In this document: positions 10,700-49,457 of the stretch, piece after piece
How the letters are laid out: the number at the start of each line of letters is the position of its first letter
Position numbering within the stretch: the first letter of the stretch is position 1
Source of the DNA: Bacilli bacterium
GTDB taxonomy: Bacteria; Bacillota_I; Bacilli_A; RFN20; CAG-826
Direction: 5' to 3'
NCBI GenBank assembly: GCA_017429285.1
Contig: JAFRPF010000023.1
Span: 1 to 50,645 of the forward strand
DNA length: 50,645 bases
Notes under the pieces: generated by a model
Seen by the model: the letters and a program-made list of their open reading frames with translations, nothing else
What the model was told of the DNA's origin: nothing
The model's database searches: none
Translations under genes and position numbers: made by a program

Positions 10700-12472
10700 A
10701 TGGAAGAGAATAAAAAAGAAGTTGTTTTATCCGTTAAAGATCTATATGTAAACTTCTCCACAGACCACGGTTATGTGCAAGCGGTGAGAGGTGTCAGTTT
10801 CGATCTATATAAGGGTGAAACTTTATGTATCGTTGGTGAATCTGGTTCTGGTAAATCAGTGACTAGTAAAACCATCATGGGCATCTTAGCGGCAAACGGG
10901 AGAATCGTCTCCGGTTCCATCATGTATGAAGGCGAAGATTTAACCAAAGTTAGTGAAGATGAATTCCATCGTATTAGAGGTCATAAGATTGGCATGATTT
11001 TCCAAGATCCTTTGTCCTCTTTAAACCCCATTATGAGAATCGGTAAGCAAATTACCGAAGCCATTTTAATTAATAGTTCTCACTTAAAGAAAAAATATAA
11101 CGATTTAGTTTCTGAAGAATTAACCGCTTATAAGAATGCGATTACTGAACTTAATAACGGCATCAATACGAAGAAAGAAGCTGTCAAATTCTTAAAGAGT
11201 GAGAAGAAAAAAGAAATTAATAAGATTAAGAATATGGCGGAAAATGAAGCGGATGGTAAGATCTTCGCTTTAGAACAAGATTATGGCTTAGAAAAAGTCA
11301 CAATTAAACACGCCTATGATAATGTTATTGAAAATAATAAAAAGCTTCTAGAAGAAGGTAAAATTAGCCAAGAACAATTTAATGAAGAAGCGAAAATTGC
11401 TTTAGAAAAGAAAGAAGCGGAATTAAAAGACGCTAGTGAGAAATTTTTAGCGAATAAGAAATCAATTAGAGAAGAAGCTAGAGAAATTGGTTTAAAGAAT
11501 AAAGCTAATTTAAATTCTGTCATCGCTTCATTTGATGAAAAGATCAAAATAGCCAAAGAAGATAGCAAATATTCTAAAAAACAATTATTAGAAAAATATC
11601 GTCCAATTATCGCGGAAACTAAAAAAGCTTATCGCTTAAAGAGTATCGAAGCGAAAAAGAAAGTGAAAGAACTTAAGAAATCTTATCACGATGATTATTT
11701 AGCTTCTTTAGAAGAAATTAAAAAGAATAATGGCACAAAAGAAGATTATAAGAAAGCTAGGGCCAAATATATTTCCCGTTTACGTGTCACACGAGCTGAA
11801 GCGAAAAAAAGAGCCTTAAAAGTCATGAAAGAAGTTGGTATTCCTAATCCAGAAACGAGATTTAGACAATACCCATTTGAATTCTCTGGTGGTATGAGAC
11901 AAAGAATTGTTATCGCGATCGCATTAACCGCGAATCCCGATATCTTAATTTGTGACGAACCAACTACCGCTTTAGACGTTACCATTCAAGCGCAAATCTT
12001 AGAATTAATTAACCGTTTAAAAGCCGAAAGAAATATTTCTTGTATCTTTATTACCCACGACTTAGGTGTCGTCGCTAATATGGCGGACCGTGTCGCGGTC
12101 ATGTACGCTGGTAAAATTGTCGAATATGGAACAGAAGAAGAAATCTTCTATGATCCAAAACATCCATATACTTGGGCGTTATTATCTTCTATTCCAGATG
12201 TCGATTCTAAAGAAAGACTTGACGCAATTCCTGGTACCCCACCAAATATGATCTATCCTCCTAAAGGAGATGCCTTCGCTTTAAGAAGTAAATATGCGAT
12301 GAAAATCGACTTTAAGAAAGAACCTCCATTATTTAAGGTGAGCGATACTCATTATGCAGCGACATGGTTACTTGACCCACGCGCTCCAAAAGTGGAAATG
12401 CCCGCTATTGTGAAAGCTCGTATCCAAAATAGTATCAAAGCTCATAAAGCGGCGATGAAAGGAGATAAATAA
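10700..12472 (+). CDS. oppD: Oligopeptide transporter ATPase OppD with long coiled-coil insertion
   Basis: A 590-residue ATPase, against about 330-350 normally. Motifs in order: Walker A GESGSGKS (46-53), Q-loop Gln102 in MIFQDPLSSLNP, signature SGGMRQR (from Ser396), Walker B ILICDEP with Glu420, H-loop His453. The C-terminal region has the OppD-type sequence GTPPNMIYPPKGDAF. Between the Q-loop and the signature lie about 294 residues instead of about 65. Roughly residues 130-365 are very rich in Lys and Glu with heptad-like spacing, predicting a long antiparallel coiled coil growing out of the helical subdomain. All catalytic motifs are intact, so the enzyme should be active. It follows oppC by one base, with the ribosome site AAGGAG at 10685-10690. 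Confidence 0.93.
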   Translation: MEENKKEVVLSVKDLYVNFSTDHGYVQAVRGVSFDLYKGETLCIVGESGSGKSVTSKTIMGILAANGRIVSGSIMYEGEDLTKVSEDEFHRIRGHKIGMIFQDPLSSLNPIMRIGKQITEAILINSSHLKKKYNDLVSEELTAYKNAITELNNGINTKKEAVKFLKSEKKKEINKIKNMAENEADGKIFALEQDYGLEKVTIKHAYDNVIENNKKLLEEGKISQEQFNEEAKIALEKKEAELKDASEKFLANKKSIREEAREIGLKNKANLNSVIASFDEKIKIAKEDSKYSKKQLLEKYRPIIAETKKAYRLKSIEAKKKVKELKKSYHDDYLASLEEIKKNNGTKEDYKKARAKYISRLRVTRAEAKKRALKVMKEVGIPNPETRFRQYPFEFSGGMRQRIVIAIALTANPDILICDEPTTALDVTIQAQILELINRLKAERNISCIFITHDLGVVANMADRVAVMYAGKIVEYGTEEEIFYDPKHPYTWALLSSIPDVDSKERLDAIPGTPPNMIYPPKGDAFALRSKYAMKIDFKKEPPLFKVSDTHYAATWLLDPRAPKVEMPAIVKARIQNSIKAHKAAMKGDK

Positions 12473-12474
12473 TT

Positions 12475-13713
12475 ATGAGAATTTTTAAAGAAAAACGCTC
12501 CGTTACTTATCGTCCTGAACTTGTCGAAAATAATATCGAATTATCGGTTAGACATTTAAAACAATTCTTTAAATTCGGACATGGTAAAAACGCTTTTATC
12601 ACCAAAGCGGTTCACGATGTGAGTTTCGATATTAAAAAAGGTGAATGCTTCGGTGTGGTTGGTGAATCAGGATGTGGTAAAACCACAACTGGTAGAAGCT
12701 TAATTAGACTATATAACATCACCTCTGGTTCTGTTTATTTTAAGGGCTATCGTATTTCCGCCGGAAAAAGATGGAATGAAAAAGAAATTAAATGGTCGAG
12801 AATCAAAGGCAATCGTAAGATTAAAGAATTAAAGGTCGAACAAGCGGACCGTATCAAAGCTTTAAACGATGAAGTGAGCGATCAAGCTTTATTAGCTAGA
12901 GAAATCGAAAAAGTTAATAAAGAATACGCCAAAAAGATCGCCGATATCAAAAAACACATCGCCGATGTCAAAAAGGAACAAAAAGAAATCATTAAGCAAA
13001 TTACTTATGATACTCGTCATGTCGATAAGAAACTCATGAGTAAGATGCAGATGATCTTCCAAGATCCAGTTGATAGTCTTGATCCTCGTATGACGGTTGA
13101 AGATATTATTCAAGAAGGATTACATATCCAAGGTCACTATAATAGATTCGAAAATTCCCAAAAGGTGAAAGATGCTTTAGTGAAGGTCGGATTACTTCCT
13201 GAATACTCTTCTCGTTATCCACATGAATTCTCTGGTGGTCAAAGACAACGTATTGGCATCGCTAGAGCGTTAATTATGAATCCAGACTTCCTCATATGTG
13301 ATGAGCCTATTTCAGCCCTTGACGTGTCTATTAGAGCCCAAATTATTAATTTATTAAATAATTTAAAAGAAGAAATGGGGTTAACGATCATGTTTATCGC
13401 TCATGACTTATCCGTTGTTAAATATTTCTGCGATCGTATCGCGGTGATGTACTTCGGTAAAATTGTCGAATTAGCCACTAGTGATGAATTATTCAAACAT
13501 CCATTACACCCATATACACGTGCGTTATTATCAGCGATTCCAAAGCCAGATCCATATACGGAGAAGAAAAGACAAAGATATGTCTATAATCCAAGTCAAG
13601 AACATGATTACTCTAAAGAAGCTCCTTCCTTAGTGGAAATTGTTCCAGGACACTTCGTGATGGCTAATAGTGAAGAAATCGCTAAATACAAAAAAGAGTT
13701 AAAGAAAGATTAA
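12475..13713 (+). CDS. oppF: Oligopeptide transporter ATPase OppF with charged helical insertion
   Basis: A 412-residue ATPase, against about 310-330 normally. Walker A GESGCGKT is at 63-70, the Q-loop at Gln196 (MIFQDPVDSLDP), the signature SGGQRQR from Ser253, and the Walker B LICDEPISALD and the H-loop AHDLSVV follow. The Walker A to Q-loop distance is about 133 residues instead of about 50. Residues about 105-188 are a Lys/Glu/Asp-rich helical insertion with repeated phrases KKIADIKKHIADVKKEQKE. This position differs from the OppD insertion. The end PYTRALLSAIPKPDP is typical of the family. It follows oppD by two bases with a GGAG site and is closed by a terminator. It completes the ATPase heterodimer that powers peptide import. 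Confidence 0.93.
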   Translation: MRIFKEKRSVTYRPELVENNIELSVRHLKQFFKFGHGKNAFITKAVHDVSFDIKKGECFGVVGESGCGKTTTGRSLIRLYNITSGSVYFKGYRISAGKRWNEKEIKWSRIKGNRKIKELKVEQADRIKALNDEVSDQALLAREIEKVNKEYAKKIADIKKHIADVKKEQKEIIKQITYDTRHVDKKLMSKMQMIFQDPVDSLDPRMTVEDIIQEGLHIQGHYNRFENSQKVKDALVKVGLLPEYSSRYPHEFSGGQRQRIGIARALIMNPDFLICDEPISALDVSIRAQIINLLNNLKEEMGLTIMFIAHDLSVVKYFCDRIAVMYFGKIVELATSDELFKHPLHPYTRALLSAIPKPDPYTEKKRQRYVYNPSQEHDYSKEAPSLVEIVPGHFVMANSEEIAKYKKELKKD

Positions 13714-13825: not shown

Positions 13826-14137
13826 ATGTCAGTTATAGAAGGCGTTTTGTTAGAAGAAATCGATAGATTAGAAAAGAATATATTAAGTTATGAAAATTCG
13901 CTTAATAATCTTCCTAGAGGAACGATATTCATTAGAAAAATGGGTAATTCCTTTTTTGCTTATCGAAAAAGAAAAGAAAAACAAAAAGTGGTCTCTATAT
14001 ACCTTGGTAATATAAACGATGAGCAAGTTAAAAAAGAGATCGAATTATCAAATGAGTACAAAAGAATTAAAAATAATATCCGACTTTGCAATAAAGAACT
14101 AAATAAATTAAAAAGGGCTATTAAAGTATATGATTGA
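13826..14137 (+). CDS. Small basic coiled-coil protein, partner of the nucleotidyltransferase
   Basis: A 103-residue protein of unknown function. It has two helical, coiled-coil-prone ends (residues 5-28 and 70-100) flanking a short beta-rich segment, LPRGTIFIRKMGNSFFAYRK followed by VVSIYLG. That middle pattern ('l.kGsi..r...g..Yyy....r..gk...kYlg') is seen in small proteins of the DUF6788 kind, which I note as a resemblance only. GGTGAT (13817-13822) is a weak ribosome site before ATG 13826. The gene overlaps the next by 8 bases (14130-14137), so the two are translationally coupled. Its AT-rich codon use, own promoter and candidate operator suggest a self-contained accessory pair, perhaps of the toxin-antitoxin kind. 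Confidence 0.6.
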   Translation: MSVIEGVLLEEIDRLEKNILSYENSLNNLPRGTIFIRKMGNSFFAYRKRKEKQKVVSIYLGNINDEQVKKEIELSNEYKRIKNNIRLCNKELNKLKRAIKVYD

Positions 14138-14789
14138 AAATGAACAAAAAATGAAAGAAATATTACAAGTTTTGAATGACGAAGGAATACTAAGTAATGT
14201 CATTATAATTGGTTCTTGGAGTCTATTCTTTTACAAGGAGATTTTTGAAAACTTTAGTCCAATGGTTAGAACTAGAGATATAGATTTTTATGTTCCTAGT
14301 CCTAAACAAATTAAAGAAAGAGATAATGTAATCGCTTCTTTAAAGAGCTTAAATTACGATTTCATACGTGATACTTTGACTCATAAGTCTACATTCATTT
14401 CTCCTGATGATTTTGAACTTGAGTTTTTAACTAAGCTAAATAAAGATAACTTAGCATGTGTCAAACTAGGAAATACAAATATTTACGCTGAATCTATTTC
14501 GTATGTAGAGATCTTTTCTAATAATTATGTCGAGATATTATATCAAGGGATAAAAGTGAAGGTTGCTTCTCCAGCATCCTATGTTTTACAGAAGTTATTA
14601 ATCAATAATAAAAGGAAAGATAAAAAAGAAAAAGATATAGAATCGGTAAGACACGTTTTAAATTATATTAATGGTAGTAGGAAATATTCAGAGGAACTAA
14701 AAACACTTTTTGAGTCACTTCCTAAAACGTGGAAAAAGAAAATTAAATCTATCGTAGAGGCTAATGATTTAAATCTGGATTTTAAATAA
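14130..14789 (+). CDS. Nucleotidyltransferase-fold protein (GSU2403/NTP_transf-like)
   Basis: A 219-residue protein with the signature of the polymerase-beta-type nucleotidyltransferase fold: IIIGSWSLFFY (Gly28-Ser29) followed by RTRDIDFYVP, in which Asp50 and Asp52 are the metal-binding pair; Glu96 or Glu98 in DFELEFL could be the third acid. The later segment ASPASYVLQKLLINNKRKDK followed by KEKDIE is the phrase seen after the catalytic domain in GSU2403-like and AbiEii-like proteins. Such enzymes add nucleotides to protein or RNA targets and often serve as toxins or phage-defence effectors; that role here is inference. It overlaps the upstream gene by 8 bases. No ribosome site of its own is obvious. 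Confidence 0.65.
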   Translation: MIENEQKMKEILQVLNDEGILSNVIIIGSWSLFFYKEIFENFSPMVRTRDIDFYVPSPKQIKERDNVIASLKSLNYDFIRDTLTHKSTFISPDDFELEFLTKLNKDNLACVKLGNTNIYAESISYVEIFSNNYVEILYQGIKVKVASPASYVLQKLLINNKRKDKKEKDIESVRHVLNYINGSRKYSEELKTLFESLPKTWKKKIKSIVEANDLNLDFK

Positions 14790-14899: not shown

Positions 14900-15904
14900 T
14901 TATTCTTGTTCAGCTTTCTTATCAGCCTCATCAAATTTCTTTAATAAATCTTCAACGGTAAGTTTTTGTTTTTCTTCACCTTTGACGTCATAGATGATGT
15001 GACCCATATGGAACATGATTAATCTATTTCCATAAGTAATTGCGTCTTTCATATTGTGAGTAATCATTAAAGTGGTCATCTGATTTTCTTTAACTATCTT
15101 ATCGGTTAATTCCAAAACTTTTTTCGCGGTTTTTGGATCAAGCGCAGCGGTATGTTCATCGAGTAGTAAGATTTGTTTAGTTAAGTCAAATTGACGGACT
15201 TTTTTATCAAATTCCTCGTAAAACTCCGCTTTTTTGTCTTTTCTGATCTCTTTTGGAAGATGTTTCAAATTCTTTAATTGCCTCTTATATTCCTCTAATG
15301 CAGGAAGATAAATATCATCAAATTCTTTTCTCGCGACTTCAGGTTTTTTCTCGGAGAATTTAATGTAATCTCTTTTAATCATCTTATGGGTTGGTTTATT
15401 TCTAATTGTCGCCATTAAAAGGGTGAGGGCTTGTCTTTGTCCACCTGACATAACGCCAACTTTTTGATTCAAGCGATCCTCTAAACCCAAATCAAATCTT
15501 TGAAGTTCTTTGATAAATTCTTTCTTGTGTGAGGATTTAAAACCCCATTTAAAAGGTGAATGAGTTCTGCCTCTAAGATAAGCAATTTCTAAATTCTCTA
15601 ACACCGACATATCCCCCGACGTACCCATCATTGGGTCTTGGAAGACATGACCAAAATATCCAGCGCGTTGATGCTCATCCATTTCTGTGATATCAACATC
15701 ATTTAATAAGACTTTACCTTTATCTGGTTTAATAACCCCAGTTAAGATATTCATCGTTGTCGATTTTCCAGAACCATTACCACCGATAATGGTGACAAAT
15801 TCTCCAGATTCAATCTGTAAGCTCACATTATCTAAAGCCACACGTAAGTCTTCTTTGTTGCCGGTCAGGTTAAAAGTTTTTGTGACATTTTTAAGTTCTA
15901 ACAT
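14900..15904 (-). CDS. ABC importer ATPase of the TrpXYZ type, with insertion before Walker B
   Basis: A 334-residue ATPase that powers the importer encoded with it. Walker A GGNGSGKS is at 41-48, the Q-loop HVFQDPMMGTS follows, the signature MSGGQRQALTLLMAT is near 151-165, and Walker B is ILLLDEHTAALDP near 243-255. The MSGGQRQALTLLMAT and LLLDEHTAALDPKTA phrases are diagnostic of the COG1101 subfamily that accompanies ABC_sub_bind proteins. Between signature and Walker B there are about 70 extra residues, mostly charged helix (for example EVARKEFDDIYLPALEEYKR), where the family has about 20. This is a third, different insertion site compared with OppD and OppF. It overlaps the permease gene by 14 bases, with AAAGGGG upstream of its ATG. 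Catalytic motifs are intact. Confidence 0.88.
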   Translation of the reverse strand: MLELKNVTKTFNLTGNKEDLRVALDNVSLQIESGEFVTIIGGNGSGKSTTMNILTGVIKPDKGKVLLNDVDITEMDEHQRAGYFGHVFQDPMMGTSGDMSVLENLEIAYLRGRTHSPFKWGFKSSHKKEFIKELQRFDLGLEDRLNQKVGVMSGGQRQALTLLMATIRNKPTHKMIKRDYIKFSEKKPEVARKEFDDIYLPALEEYKRQLKNLKHLPKEIRKDKKAEFYEEFDKKVRQFDLTKQILLLDEHTAALDPKTAKKVLELTDKIVKENQMTTLMITHNMKDAITYGNRLIMFHMGHIIYDVKGEEKQKLTVEDLLKKFDEADKKAEQE

Positions 15905-16859
15905 GTTCTTTTCCCCTTTCCAGCTTTGTTTTTAATTTATTAATTCCTAATTTAAATAAAGGAATACATAAAGCGATAGTAATTAATATTGCGTATAGTA
16001 AGCTCATTAATTCGGTTGGTAAACCAAGTTTAATAGCGATAGTGATAATTACAAAGTAAAGTAAAGCGCCACCAGAAACAGATAATAACCAGTTTTTAAA
16101 TGATCTTTTACCAAATATGGCCTCACCAATTAAGATGGATGCTAATCCGATAACTAAATATCCAGTCGCGGAAACTGTCGAGACGCTTAAAGCGTCCTGA
16201 ACATATAAAGCACCTGCTAATCCGATTAAAGCGTTAGATATAGCGACGCAGGCTATAGAGGATATATTTGTATTTATACCTTGGCTTTTTGCCATCTTTT
16301 CATTCATTCCTGTGGCTCTAATCGCCATACCAAATTCGGTACCGAAGAAGTAATAAACGGTAACAATCATAATACCGACAATAACAATCATCACTAAGGA
16401 TTCCACTAATTTATTCCATGGGAATGGGGCTAATGAAGCGGAAATCTTTGAAGAATAAAAAACCGAATATATTGTCTGATGTGATGATAATGATAATGGG
16501 ACTTGTGAATAAAAGATTTGACCAGGAGTGGTGATGCCCATGATTAACATCGCAATAGAAGCGGATGCAGTGAGGGTAATAATGCCACTTAATAACTTCG
16601 GTATTTTTAATATTCTATTTAAAAATCCAGTTACTAATCCACAACCCGCACCGACAATCATACCTAAGAAGGTCGCTAAAAATGGATTGATATGGTTATA
16701 AATTAAACTAGCGGTTAAAGCGGCACCTAAAAGGAAACTTCCTTCTGCGGTCATATCCGCAAAATCAAGTATTCTAAAGGTGAGGAAAACCCCGATTGCT
16801 AATAAGCAACAGGGTAATCCACTCGTTAAGATATTAAATAGGATATTAACAAAATCCAT
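15891..16859 (-). CDS. ABC importer permease of the TrpXYZ type
   Basis: A 322-residue membrane protein with about eight to nine hydrophobic helices. The early motif FRILDFADMTAEGSFLLGA is characteristic of the COG4120 permeases ('r..dfaDlt.dGsf.lGaa') that pair with ABC_sub_bind lipoproteins; AVAISNALIGLAGALYVQ-like sequence (written here as ACVAISNALIGLAGALYVQD) and the glycine-rich LVIGLASILIGEAIFG are also typical of this branched-chain-permease-like fold. It forms the channel for the substrate, predicted here to be an aromatic amino acid. It lies six bases downstream of the binding-protein gene and overlaps the ATPase gene, so the three are one operon on the minus strand. Confidence 0.88.
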   Translation of the reverse strand: MDFVNILFNILTSGLPCCLLAIGVFLTFRILDFADMTAEGSFLLGAALTASLIYNHINPFLATFLGMIVGAGCGLVTGFLNRILKIPKLLSGIITLTASASIAMLIMGITTPGQIFYSQVPLSLSSHQTIYSVFYSSKISASLAPFPWNKLVESLVMIVIVGIMIVTVYYFFGTEFGMAIRATGMNEKMAKSQGINTNISSIACVAISNALIGLAGALYVQDALSVSTVSATGYLVIGLASILIGEAIFGKRSFKNWLLSVSGGALLYFVIITIAIKLGLPTELMSLLYAILITIALCIPLFKLGINKLKTKLERGKEHVRT

Positions 16860-16865
16860 ATATTA

Positions 16866-17843
16866 TTAGGCAACTTCTTTCCAACTATGAGCGTTTTTTA
16901 CTGCTTCTGGCATCGTAATATTAGCAGAGGCTAAATTAGATGGAGAATAAGCATATGAACAGTTACTTGCAGGAACTGGTTCGACTTTAAAATCGGTTGG
17001 AGATTTTTCACCTTTTAAGATAGCGGCTGCCATCTTACCTGTTGAGTAACCTAAATTATAATAATCAATTGATAAAGTGACATGTCCACCAGAGGCTAAC
17101 ATATTTTCTTCACCACAAATAACTAAAACACCTTTAGAAGCAGCAGCTTCTTTAACAGCGTTCATATTAGCAGCGATGTTATTATCGGTTGGGATATAAA
17201 TAGCGTTACAAGAATCACTTACTAATGCTTCTGCAGTAGTTTTGATATTACTAGTATCTGTACATGTTTTAATATCCGCAGTCATACCAGCGGCTTCAAT
17301 TGCCGCTTTAGCTTGATCAGCTTGTACTTTGGAATTGATCTCGGTTTGAGTATACATAATTCCAACTTTAGTGGCTTCTGGATTAAATTCTTTGACTAAA
17401 GCAATTTGCTCTTCGACTGGATTAGCATCGGTTGTGCCACATATATAACCACTTGGATTATCAATAGAGGCCACTAATTCAGCTTTGACAGGATCAGTAA
17501 CGGCAGTAAACAAAATTGGTTTAGTGCTACCAGCATTTTCCGCTGCACCTTTTAAGGCGACCGCTGCTGGGGTAGCGATACCTAATGTGAGAACTGATGA
17601 ATCCACTAAGCTTTTAGCTAAAGAGTTTAAATTAGCGGATTTGCCTCTAGCGTTGCTATATGCAAATTTATAACCGGTAACCCCTTCATCTTTAATAGCT
17701 TGTTGAAAGCCTTTCCTGGATGCATCAAGAGCGCCGTGTTCTTCTGGTTGTAAGATTCCGATTTGTGGACGGTTATCGCAACCTGATAATGCAATCATCG
17801 GAAAAGCGAGTAATGGAAGAAGTGTTAATAGTTTCTTTTTCAT
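16866..17843 (-). CDS. ABC_sub_bind-family substrate-binding lipoprotein (TrpX-like, predicted aromatic amino acid)
   Basis: A 325-residue lipoprotein with signal peptide ending IALSGC (Cys22). The mature part follows the ABC_sub_bind pattern: IGILQPEEHGALDASRKGFQ, then ANLNSLAKSLVD, PILFTAVTDPV, VGIMYTQTEINS, DNNIAANMNAV and GGHVTLSIDYYNLGYSTGKM. Relatives of this family bind tryptophan or tyrosine. The leader peptide ahead of it encodes five Tyr and three Phe but no Trp, which points to tyrosine (or phenylalanine) rather than tryptophan; this is inference from regulation. AAGGAG (17851-17856) gives a clear start. It is the first structural gene of the operon and lies 22 bases downstream of the attenuator's T run. 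Confidence 0.87.
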   Translation of the reverse strand: MKKKLLTLLPLLAFPMIALSGCDNRPQIGILQPEEHGALDASRKGFQQAIKDEGVTGYKFAYSNARGKSANLNSLAKSLVDSSVLTLGIATPAAVALKGAAENAGSTKPILFTAVTDPVKAELVASIDNPSGYICGTTDANPVEEQIALVKEFNPEATKVGIMYTQTEINSKVQADQAKAAIEAAGMTADIKTCTDTSNIKTTAEALVSDSCNAIYIPTDNNIAANMNAVKEAAASKGVLVICGEENMLASGGHVTLSIDYYNLGYSTGKMAAAILKGEKSPTDFKVEPVPASNCSYAYSPSNLASANITMPEAVKNAHSWKEVA

Positions 17844-17864: not shown

Positions 17865-18011
17865 AAAAAATTTGGTGTTCTCGCACCAAACCATTCATTC
17901 TATTTGGTGCTATCAATATCAATCAATAACACCATTAGCTAAAAGACCAAGATATTATTGATTATCCCTTGGAAAGTAATAGCTATAAAAGTAATAGAAT
18001 GCTTTTTTCAT
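17865..18011 (-). promoter_or_regulatory. Tyr/Phe leader-peptide transcription attenuator
   Basis: Five segments, read on the minus strand: segment 1 AATCAATAATATC (17963-17951, overlapping the leader stop codon); segment 2 GGTGTTATTGATT (17933-17921); segment 3 ATAGCACCAAA (17913-17903); segment 4 TTTGGTGC (17890-17883); segment 5 CACCAAA (17877-17871) followed by TTTTTT. Possible pairings are 1:2 (13 pairs, two G-U), 2:3 (GGTGTTAT with ATAGCACC, 8 pairs), 3:4 antiterminator (GCACCAAA with TTTGGTGC, 8 pairs) and 4:5 terminator (7 pairs, loop CGAGAA). A ribosome reaching the leader stop would mask segment 1, letting 2:3 and then the 4:5 terminator form. A ribosome stalled in the Tyr/Phe codons would leave 1:2 free to form, so 3:4 forms and transcription continues. 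The pairing is seen; the mechanism is inferred. Confidence 0.85.
17955..18011 (-). CDS. Tyr/Phe-rich attenuator leader peptide
   Basis: An 18-codon open frame, MKKAFYYFYSYYFPRDNQ, lies about 14 bases downstream of the predicted start of transcription. Codons 5-13 contain five Tyr (6, 7, 9, 11, 12) and three Phe (5, 8, 13). The bases before ATG 18011 (AAAAGTGATT) give only a weak ribosome site. Its stop codon (17957-17955) lies inside segment 1 of the attenuator, exactly where a translating ribosome would change the folding of the RNA. Composition this biased in a short leader, together with the competing hairpins, is the hallmark of pheL or trpL-type control. The peptide itself probably has no function after synthesis. 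Confidence 0.85.
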   Translation of the reverse strand: MKKAFYYFYSYYFPRDNQ

Positions 18012-18031
18012 AATCACTTTTGTTTGGAATT

Positions 18032-18060
18032 AATCTATCACTAAGAGATAAAATAGGCAA
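18032..18060 (-). promoter_or_regulatory. Promoter of the attenuator and aromatic ABC operon
   Basis: On the minus strand, TTGCCT (18060-18055), 17 bases, then extended -10 TGA-TAGATT (hexamer 18037-18032). Transcription would start near 18025. Confidence 0.6.
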
Positions 18061-49125: not shown

Positions 49126-49457
49126 TTCGATCTGGATAATTGCTAACTTTAGTTAGAGGAAAGTCCATGCTCGCACGGGCTGAGATGCCCGTAGTGATTG
49201 CGCTAGCGGAAAAGATAACGCTAGGCACGCAGGAGTGCGTGACGGCGGAGTAAAACCTAAGGGAAACTATGGTGGAACTCCTGAAAGTGCCACAGTGACG
49301 AAGTTTCATAGAAATATGAAAGTGGAACGCGGTAAACCCCACAAGCGAGAAACCCAAATTTGGTAGGGGAGATCAATCGAAGGAATCAAACGGAGATTGG
49401 TAAGCATTTGCTTAGATAAATAATTATCCTAGACAAAACATGGCTTATAGGATCGGA
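49126..49457 (+). ncRNA. rnpB: RNase P RNA (bacterial, B-type)
   Basis: The catalytic RNA that matures the 5' end of tRNAs. P1 is formed by TTCGATC (49126-49132) with GATCGGA (49451-49457). The conserved 5' core GAGGAAAGTCCATGCTCGCA starts near 49157, and the conserved core GGTAAACCCC and ACAAAACATGGCTTATAGGA near the 3' end are visible. Length, about 332 bases, is normal. P1 starts one base after the gpsB stop, and the next ribosome site is 10 bases past P1; there is no terminator and no clear promoter of its own, so it may be cut from a longer transcript. Ends are accurate to a few bases. Confidence 0.93.

Follow-up and report, generated by a model that had tools for sequence, protein, structure and literature searches.

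A putative tyrosine/phenylalanine leader-peptide attenuator upstream of a TrpX-type ABC importer in Bacilli

A leader upstream of an ABC importer operon, on the minus strand of the 50,645-nt stretch of DNA from an uncultured, gut-type Bacilli bacterium analysed here (the window), most probably acts as a ribosome-mediated transcription attenuator that responds to tyrosine and phenylalanine; we put the probability of this reading at about 0.83, judging from sequence comparison and folding. The signal sensed would be charged tRNA-Tyr (and tRNA-Phe), and the target would be the importer. Leader-peptide attenuation through Tyr/Phe codons and five RNA segments had been proposed in an initial annotation of the sequence, and it is supported here by conservation, covariation, geometry and switching in silico. 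The logic of the element is classical, while the amino acid, the target, the segment order and the breadth of occurrence in Bacilli are new.

The leader, segments 1–5, the T run and the start of the downstream gene all lie in the minus-strand sequence where they had originally been placed, and an additional helix (helix 0) encloses segment 1. The elements of the leader region are as follows.

18032–18060, minus strand: putative promoter, with TTGCCT (18060–18055), a 17-nt spacer and TAGATT (18037–18032), and TGA before the −10 element (extended −10)
17955–18011, minus strand: leader open reading frame MKKAFYYFYSYYFPRDNQ, with ATG at 18011–18009, 18 codons and the stop codon TAA at 17957–17955
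17967–17972, minus strand: segment A, the 5′ arm of helix 0 (CCAAGG), formed by the Pro-Arg codons right after the aromatic run and pairing with 17952–17947
17951–17963, minus strand: segment 1, AATCAATAATATC, which spans the leader stop codon
17947–17952, minus strand: 3′ arm of helix 0 (TCTTGG), with a T-rich stretch and then a small hairpin, TTGGTCTTTTAGCTAA, beyond it
17921–17933, minus strand: segment 2, GGTGTTATTGATT, partner of segment 1 (13 pairs) or of segment 3 (8 pairs)
17903–17913, minus strand: segment 3, ATAGCACCAAA, partner of segment 2 or, as antiterminator, of segment 4
17883–17890, minus strand: segment 4, TTTGGTGC, shared by the antiterminator (as its 3′ arm) and the terminator (as its 5′ arm)
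17865–17877, minus strand: segment 5, CACCAAA (17877–17871) and TTTTTT (17870–17865), forming an intrinsic terminator with segment 4

Helix 1:2 pairs 17963–17951 with 17933–17921 (13 pairs, some of them G-U), helix 2:3 pairs 17933–17926 with 17913–17906 (8 pairs), the antiterminator 3:4 pairs 17910–17903 with 17890–17883 (8 pairs), and the terminator 4:5 pairs 17890–17884 with 17877–17871, directly followed by the T run at 17870–17865. The 104-nt segment folds with −30.3 kcal/mol, compared with −16.0 ± 2.9 kcal/mol for dinucleotide shuffles (z −5.0). The ribosome-binding site of the binding protein (approximately 17856–17850) is located outside every pairing segment. The leader had been described as carrying five Tyr and three Phe in codons 5–13; the run is present, with one of its codons specifying Ser (Phe5, Tyr6, Tyr7, Phe8, Tyr9, Ser10, Tyr11, Tyr12, Phe13). 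No clear or strong Shine-Dalgarno sequence precedes the leader ATG in the window genome or its genus; distant members have one. The promoter proposed for the leader has plausible elements that can be read in the sequence, and a TAGA(C/T)T-like −10 element likewise lies 5′ of the leader in loci L002, L003 and L013. It is nevertheless weak, with TTGCCT-17-TAGATT scoring under the 9/12 threshold of a consensus scan.

Ribosome stalling, the choice between termination and read-through, the substrate and a role for the extra helix are what we infer from the sequence. With ample Tyr and Phe, the translating ribosome would reach the stop codon and cover segment 1, so that 2:3 would pair, the terminator 4:5 would form and the importer would be off. 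With Tyr or Phe in short supply, the ribosome would stall on the aromatic codons with its front edge just short of segment 1; helix 1:2 would then form, segment 3 would be free to pair with segment 4 as the antiterminator, and the importer would be transcribed.

The leader is widespread in the order. When 58 related genomes were searched with the binding protein, 18 of them contained a relative, and the upstream regions of these relatives mostly hold Tyr/Phe-rich leaders of like build, some nearly identical to that of the window (MKHVYYYFYSFYFPRDNQ) and others unrelated in sequence (MNHNSRPSYSCSSFSYYYFYFFK). A covariance model built from eleven leaders of these relatives (R1) matches in 46 of the 279 genomes of the order, spread over 12 genera, with a TrpX-family gene directly downstream of all 46 matches. 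A further 40 TrpX-type genes of the order were read, 28 of which have a Tyr/Phe leader of different nucleotide sequence (for example, ...FYFYYFYFR*). Including five further divergent leaders, a Tyr/Phe-rich leader is present at approximately 79 of the 92 TrpX-type genes of the order, and the genes without one are mostly separate paralogues. Outside the order, such a leader is carried by 18 of 26 class members sampled by profile search. Named carriers are Streptococcus henryi, Ruoffia halotolerans, Alkalibacterium and Clostridium aminobutyricum, and two Leptolinea genomes carry the leader outside the Firmicutes.

Across 78 leaders, Tyr accounts for 25% and Phe for 13% of the residues (38% together), with Trp occurring once, and each leader has at least three Tyr codons, usually five or more. 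Leaders are 13–36 codons long and differ greatly in where Tyr and Phe stand and in what order. Those of the core group have an aromatic residue at almost every codon ahead of Pro-Arg, one Ser codon aside, and Tyr and Phe replace each other freely at nine codons, which remain aromatic. The C-terminal motif FPRxNQ is conserved within the core group only, and many other leaders end differently. A test of the leader frame by synonymous changes was set aside: 726 of 1109 codon differences were synonymous or Tyr/Phe swaps in the right frame, and because a wrong frame is also rich in synonymous changes, only the constancy of the aromatic codons is used as evidence. One element (L053:463-573, genome G202) matches the model over 111 nt only, with segments 3 and 4 missing and the leader and terminator remaining, and is perhaps a decayed attenuator. 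On contig 12 of genome G054 (L011, L019), two TrpX-type binding-protein genes lie in tandem, and a Tyr leader was found before the second only.

Covariation was analysed in 44 distinct sequences aligned by R1, a model fitted to helices 1:2 and 4:5. In these two helices, to which the alignment is thus fitted, 17 of 20 pairs have changes on both sides, compared with 7.3 in shuffles. The two helices that are not part of the model hold up as well: pairing in 3:4 is 91%, and its covariation score (0.306 versus 0.224) was matched by none of 500 shuffles; for 2:3, pairing is 82%, and 3 of 500 shuffles attained its score. An alignment-free test, in which the best duplexes were chained upstream from the terminator, recovered 3:4 in 59 of 72 leaders, 2:3 in 57 of 71 and 1:2 in 53 of 71 at p ≤ 0.05; this result carries weight because the divergent leaders share no sequence. 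Members unrelated in sequence retain the pairing chain, as in one divergent group in which segment 1 is GTTTCCTA and segment 2 is GGTGGGAGAC. The relatives, in which the initial annotation had proposed to look for Tyr/Phe codons and compensating pairs, conserve both.

The proposed consequence of ribosome position, off at the stop codon and on when stalled, agrees with folding in silico and with a constant geometry. The ribosome was represented by masking part of the growing transcript, with an assumed coverage of approximately 12 nt ahead of the A-site codon. In these masked folds, the stalled position favours 3:4 relative to the stop position in 57 of 71 leaders, with the opposite preference in 2; by the set margin, 14 of the 71 are without a preference for 3:4 on stalling. 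For the window, the expected number of 3:4 pairs is 9.0 with a stalled ribosome and 0.5 with a ribosome at the stop codon, and the means over the homologues are 7.6 without a ribosome, 9.9 stalled and 6.2 at the stop codon. In 35 of 45 leaders, the distance from the first base of the last aromatic codon to the start of segment 1 is exactly 12 nt; the end of segment 1 lies 5–7 nt beyond the first base of the stop codon, also in 35 of 45. Given the assumed coverage and this constant spacing, a stall on any aromatic codon would leave segment 1 free, and a ribosome at the stop codon would cover it.

The five-segment description is accurate for segments 1–5 but overlooked helix 0. The codons CCA AG(A/G) that follow the aromatic run are complementary to CTTGG past segment 1, which places segment 1 in the loop. 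In the core alignment, 83.7% of the cells of this helix are paired and 8 cells are changed on both sides, compared with 2.7 in shuffles, and compensated variants (CTTAG:CTAAG and TCAAG:CTTGA) are visible by eye. Other families of the class also retain the non-coding arm CTTGG with a T-rich stretch after it, and FYYYYYFPR-type leaders elsewhere in the class retain both CCAAG and CTTGG. Helix 0 of the 'FR*' group (AGG:CCT, visible by eye) was left uncounted because MAFFT did not align the second arm. In a single-sequence shuffle test, helix 0 was significant in 0 of 47 leaders. An outer extension, TAGCTA:TAGCTA, would account for the conservation of the Ser codon AGC but was rejected, as its pairs break in Tyr variants and show no covariation. 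Stalling on the last aromatic codons would place the ribosome over the CCAAG arm. Counting helix 0, the order would be A:B, C:D, E:F (off) versus B:C, D:E (on), and the stalled ribosome would mask A but leave B exposed. This six-segment arrangement is also that of the E. coli his leader.

Helix 0 bears on the state of the leader when it is not translated, for which the initial annotation had expected read-through, the reverse of E. coli trp. Folded without a ribosome, the window transcript sequesters segment 1 and forms 2:3 (the off form), although the fold flips to the on form when 20 nt of 5′ UTR are included. With helix 0 present and the fold dependent on the 5′ UTR, read-through by default is therefore the weaker expectation, and the balance tips slightly towards an untranslated state that would be off. 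In the competing account, which is possible but doubtful, the five segments are complete, 1:2 and 3:4 form whenever the leader is not translated, the importer is on by default in the reverse of E. coli trp, and CCAAG:CTTGG is without function or matters only for coding or pausing. Ribosome-free equilibrium folds of many homologues do give 1:2 and 3:4 (the mean of 7.6 expected 3:4 pairs above), as does the window once its 5′ UTR is added, and the 13 pairs of 1:2 are far stronger than helix 0 (approximately −4 kcal/mol), which fails the single-sequence test. This account has to accommodate the non-coding CTTGG arm, which several families of the class conserve together with its complementarity to CCAAG, the concerted changes of the two arms in a few members (8 cells versus 2.7), and the formation of helix 0 before segment 2 exists. 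In B. subtilis, transcription outruns translation, which weighs against the attenuator reading, and leaders use a pause hairpin with NusG (PMC9226507). In the attenuator favoured here, helix 0 might make off the default state, serve as a pause hairpin that holds RNA polymerase until the ribosome arrives, or do both.

The operon, in which the binding-protein start lies 22 bases past the T run, comprises three genes.

16866–17843, minus strand: substrate-binding lipoprotein of the TrpX/CD0873 family (ABC_sub_bind), with ATG at 17843 and a tyrosine-type pocket (Glu245 and Tyr261)
15891–16859, minus strand: permease (BPD_transp_2), in the same operon as the binding protein
14900–15904, minus strand: ABC ATPase, in the same operon as the binding protein, with a terminator-like hairpin just downstream (14894–14867)

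The importer had been called TrpXYZ-type. The family is right, with the binding protein scoring 228 bits against the TrpX model (under the equivalog cut-off of 390), but the pocket predicts tyrosine rather than tryptophan. The closest solved relatives are 3lft (tryptophan), 6hni, which is CD0873 (tyrosine), and 3lkv (phenylalanine). According to PMC6816091, ligand choice rests on two residues, which in the tyrosine protein are Glu-263 and Tyr-279; Glu245 and Tyr261 of the window protein align with these two positions as given there. The Trp-type pocket (Ala/Gln) is not present in the window binding protein, and the Glu/Tyr pocket is found in 74 of 81 leader-bearing binding proteins. As a discriminator of leader-bearing from leaderless binding proteins the pocket residues failed, nearly all proteins being Glu/Tyr. 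The controlled importer most likely takes up tyrosine, as its pocket suggests. Chorismate synthase and TyrA (prephenate dehydrogenase) are absent from the six genomes of the genus, which should therefore depend on uptake. Among the Leptolinea (Chloroflexota) leaders, one (L129, ...SYYFYGYYY...) precedes a TrpX-type protein with a Glu/Tyr pocket, and a Phe-only leader (L138, ...SFFFFFFFA...; one case only) precedes an Ala/Tyr (phenylalanine-type) protein.

The same elements could be read in other ways. The nascent chain within the ribosome tunnel might detect free Tyr or Phe, as in an arrest peptide, in place of sensing through slow decoding of Tyr/Phe codons, and the conserved FPRxNQ terminus of the core group is of the kind that arrest peptides often have. 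Its Pro-Arg codons are, however, explained equally well by RNA pairing; the length of the leader and the placement of Tyr and Phe are variable and many other C-termini occur; and with these segments, arrest by an abundant ligand would have the opposite sign, switching the importer on when Tyr is plentiful. We regard an arrest peptide as very unlikely. Even less probable is that segments 4 and 5 do not terminate transcription and that control is exerted instead through binding-protein translation or mRNA decay: the script recognised no terminator in L052, L069, L071, L072, L077 and L082, yet a GC-containing hairpin with an immediate T run is present in most members and in the window, and no pairing segment includes the ribosome-binding site.

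It has also to be considered that the leader reports translation generally, for example under antibiotic stress, as the bmrB or vmlR leaders do, since B. subtilis has ribosome-mediated attenuators that control transporters and resistance factors in response to antibiotics (PMC4191407, PMC9226507). The recurrence of Tyr codons in all 78 leaders (three at the least), the matching importer with its tyrosine-type pocket and the auxotrophy of the host argue against such a general signal, which is the least probable of the readings considered. Attenuation governed by the decoding of Tyr and Phe codons is thus the reading preferred here.

The locus has no match beyond chance, even at E 10, to the T-box (RF00230), to a riboswitch or to another Rfam family; T-boxes occur elsewhere in the same genome, for example before valS (named from its sequence). 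The family RF02863, 'Enterococcus sRNA 2410', likewise gives no match in the window. It does match upstream of TrpX-type genes in Enterococcus plantarum, Alkalibacterium, Ruoffia and two further Bacilli (L126:1277-1480, L182:1094-1284, L207:2487-2675, L185:1235-1356 and L218), where the matches follow or overlap a Tyr/Phe leader open reading frame ending in ...YFSYFR or similar (for example, MTHSINPQLNKAYFSYFR). RF02863 is thus alike in its leader upstream of a TrpX-type gene and different in being filed as a small RNA; it is probably a terminated attenuator of the same kind rather than an sRNA. Three weak RF02863 matches (L220, L221 and L222; approximately 1400–1800) precede other transporters, which were named by eye: a BrnQ-like transporter with leaders MNSNLTTRFYYSYYC and MNSTLTNLYDYSYYC (...FYYSYYC and ...YDYSYYC), and an NSS-like transporter with leader MNTFNVQLNNWRNWSY (...WRNWSY, with Trp codons). 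The chances are about even that these elements make up a class-wide family of aromatic-amino-acid leader-peptide attenuators in Bacilli, in which the six-segment, stall-gated order would have been kept while the sequence turned over fully, and which several kinds of transporter would have taken over (TrpX-type with Tyr/Phe codons, BrnQ-like with FYYSYY and NSS-like with WRNW), with RF02863 as a terminated member.

Translation-coupled switches are thought to be rare in the class Bacilli. To our knowledge, no tyrosine leader is known, and no report of a tyrosine leader peptide was found in the open-access literature. The enterobacterial trp and pheA attenuators and especially the six-segment his attenuator, as summarized in PMC9413887, resemble the element of the window in having a leader open reading frame with a run of codons, mutually exclusive helices, an intrinsic terminator and a downstream gene for the same amino acid. 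The window element differs in that it would sense both Tyr and Phe and control an importer rather than biosynthesis, in its Bacilli host and unrelated sequence, and in having the sensed codons upstream of segment 1 and the stop codon inside it. The general view taken initially, that aromatic genes of Firmicutes are controlled more often by T-boxes or proteins and that peptide attenuation is proteobacterial, needs qualification, because leader-peptide attenuation has been published in Firmicutes for histidine (hisZ/hisS*, PMC2965389; his operons, PMC9413887) and for leucine (S. aureus ilv-leu, PMC5794164). These leaders also combine a codon-run peptide with a terminator and antiterminator in place of T-boxes, but they concern other amino acids and genes in few species each, whereas the leaders described here number more than 75, occur in many families of one class and have a common five- or six-segment chain.

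The trpXYZ operon of Streptococcus suis is controlled by a Trp T-box (PMC9382623). It shares with the reading proposed for the window the transporter family, transcription attenuation and an importer that is on when the aromatic amino acid is short; uncharged tRNA binds that RNA directly, whereas in the window, which has no T-box, a translated leader would be the sensor. The bmrB and vmlR leaders of B. subtilis (PMC4191407, PMC9226507) are, as proposed for the window leader, ribosome-mediated transcription attenuators of a Gram-positive bacterium, but they sense antibiotics rather than an amino acid, and vmlR uses a pause hairpin and an anti-antiterminator. CD0873 of C. difficile has the same binding-protein family and tyrosine-type pocket, and leader regulation is not described in the accessible text of its report (PMC6816091). 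If the attenuator reading is true, Bacilli would have a widespread alternative to the T-box and offer a natural test of transcription–translation coupling in Gram-positive bacteria. The two processes would have to be coupled closely enough to permit classical attenuation in relatives of B. subtilis, in which they are regarded as uncoupled. Tyrosine would be the substrate of many importers now annotated as transporters of tryptophan or sugars, and at least one enterococcal 'sRNA' would be reassigned.

Elsewhere in the window, three ABC ATPases (10700–12472, 12475–13713 and 14900–15904) have long Lys/Glu-rich insertions within the ATPase domain that are probably coiled-coil. At 13826–14789, an open reading frame of 103 codons overlaps a gene for an NTP_transf_8 nucleotidyltransferase (PF12281), and the pair could be toxin–antitoxin-like. 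A class B RNase P RNA (RF00011) is located at 49128–49452.
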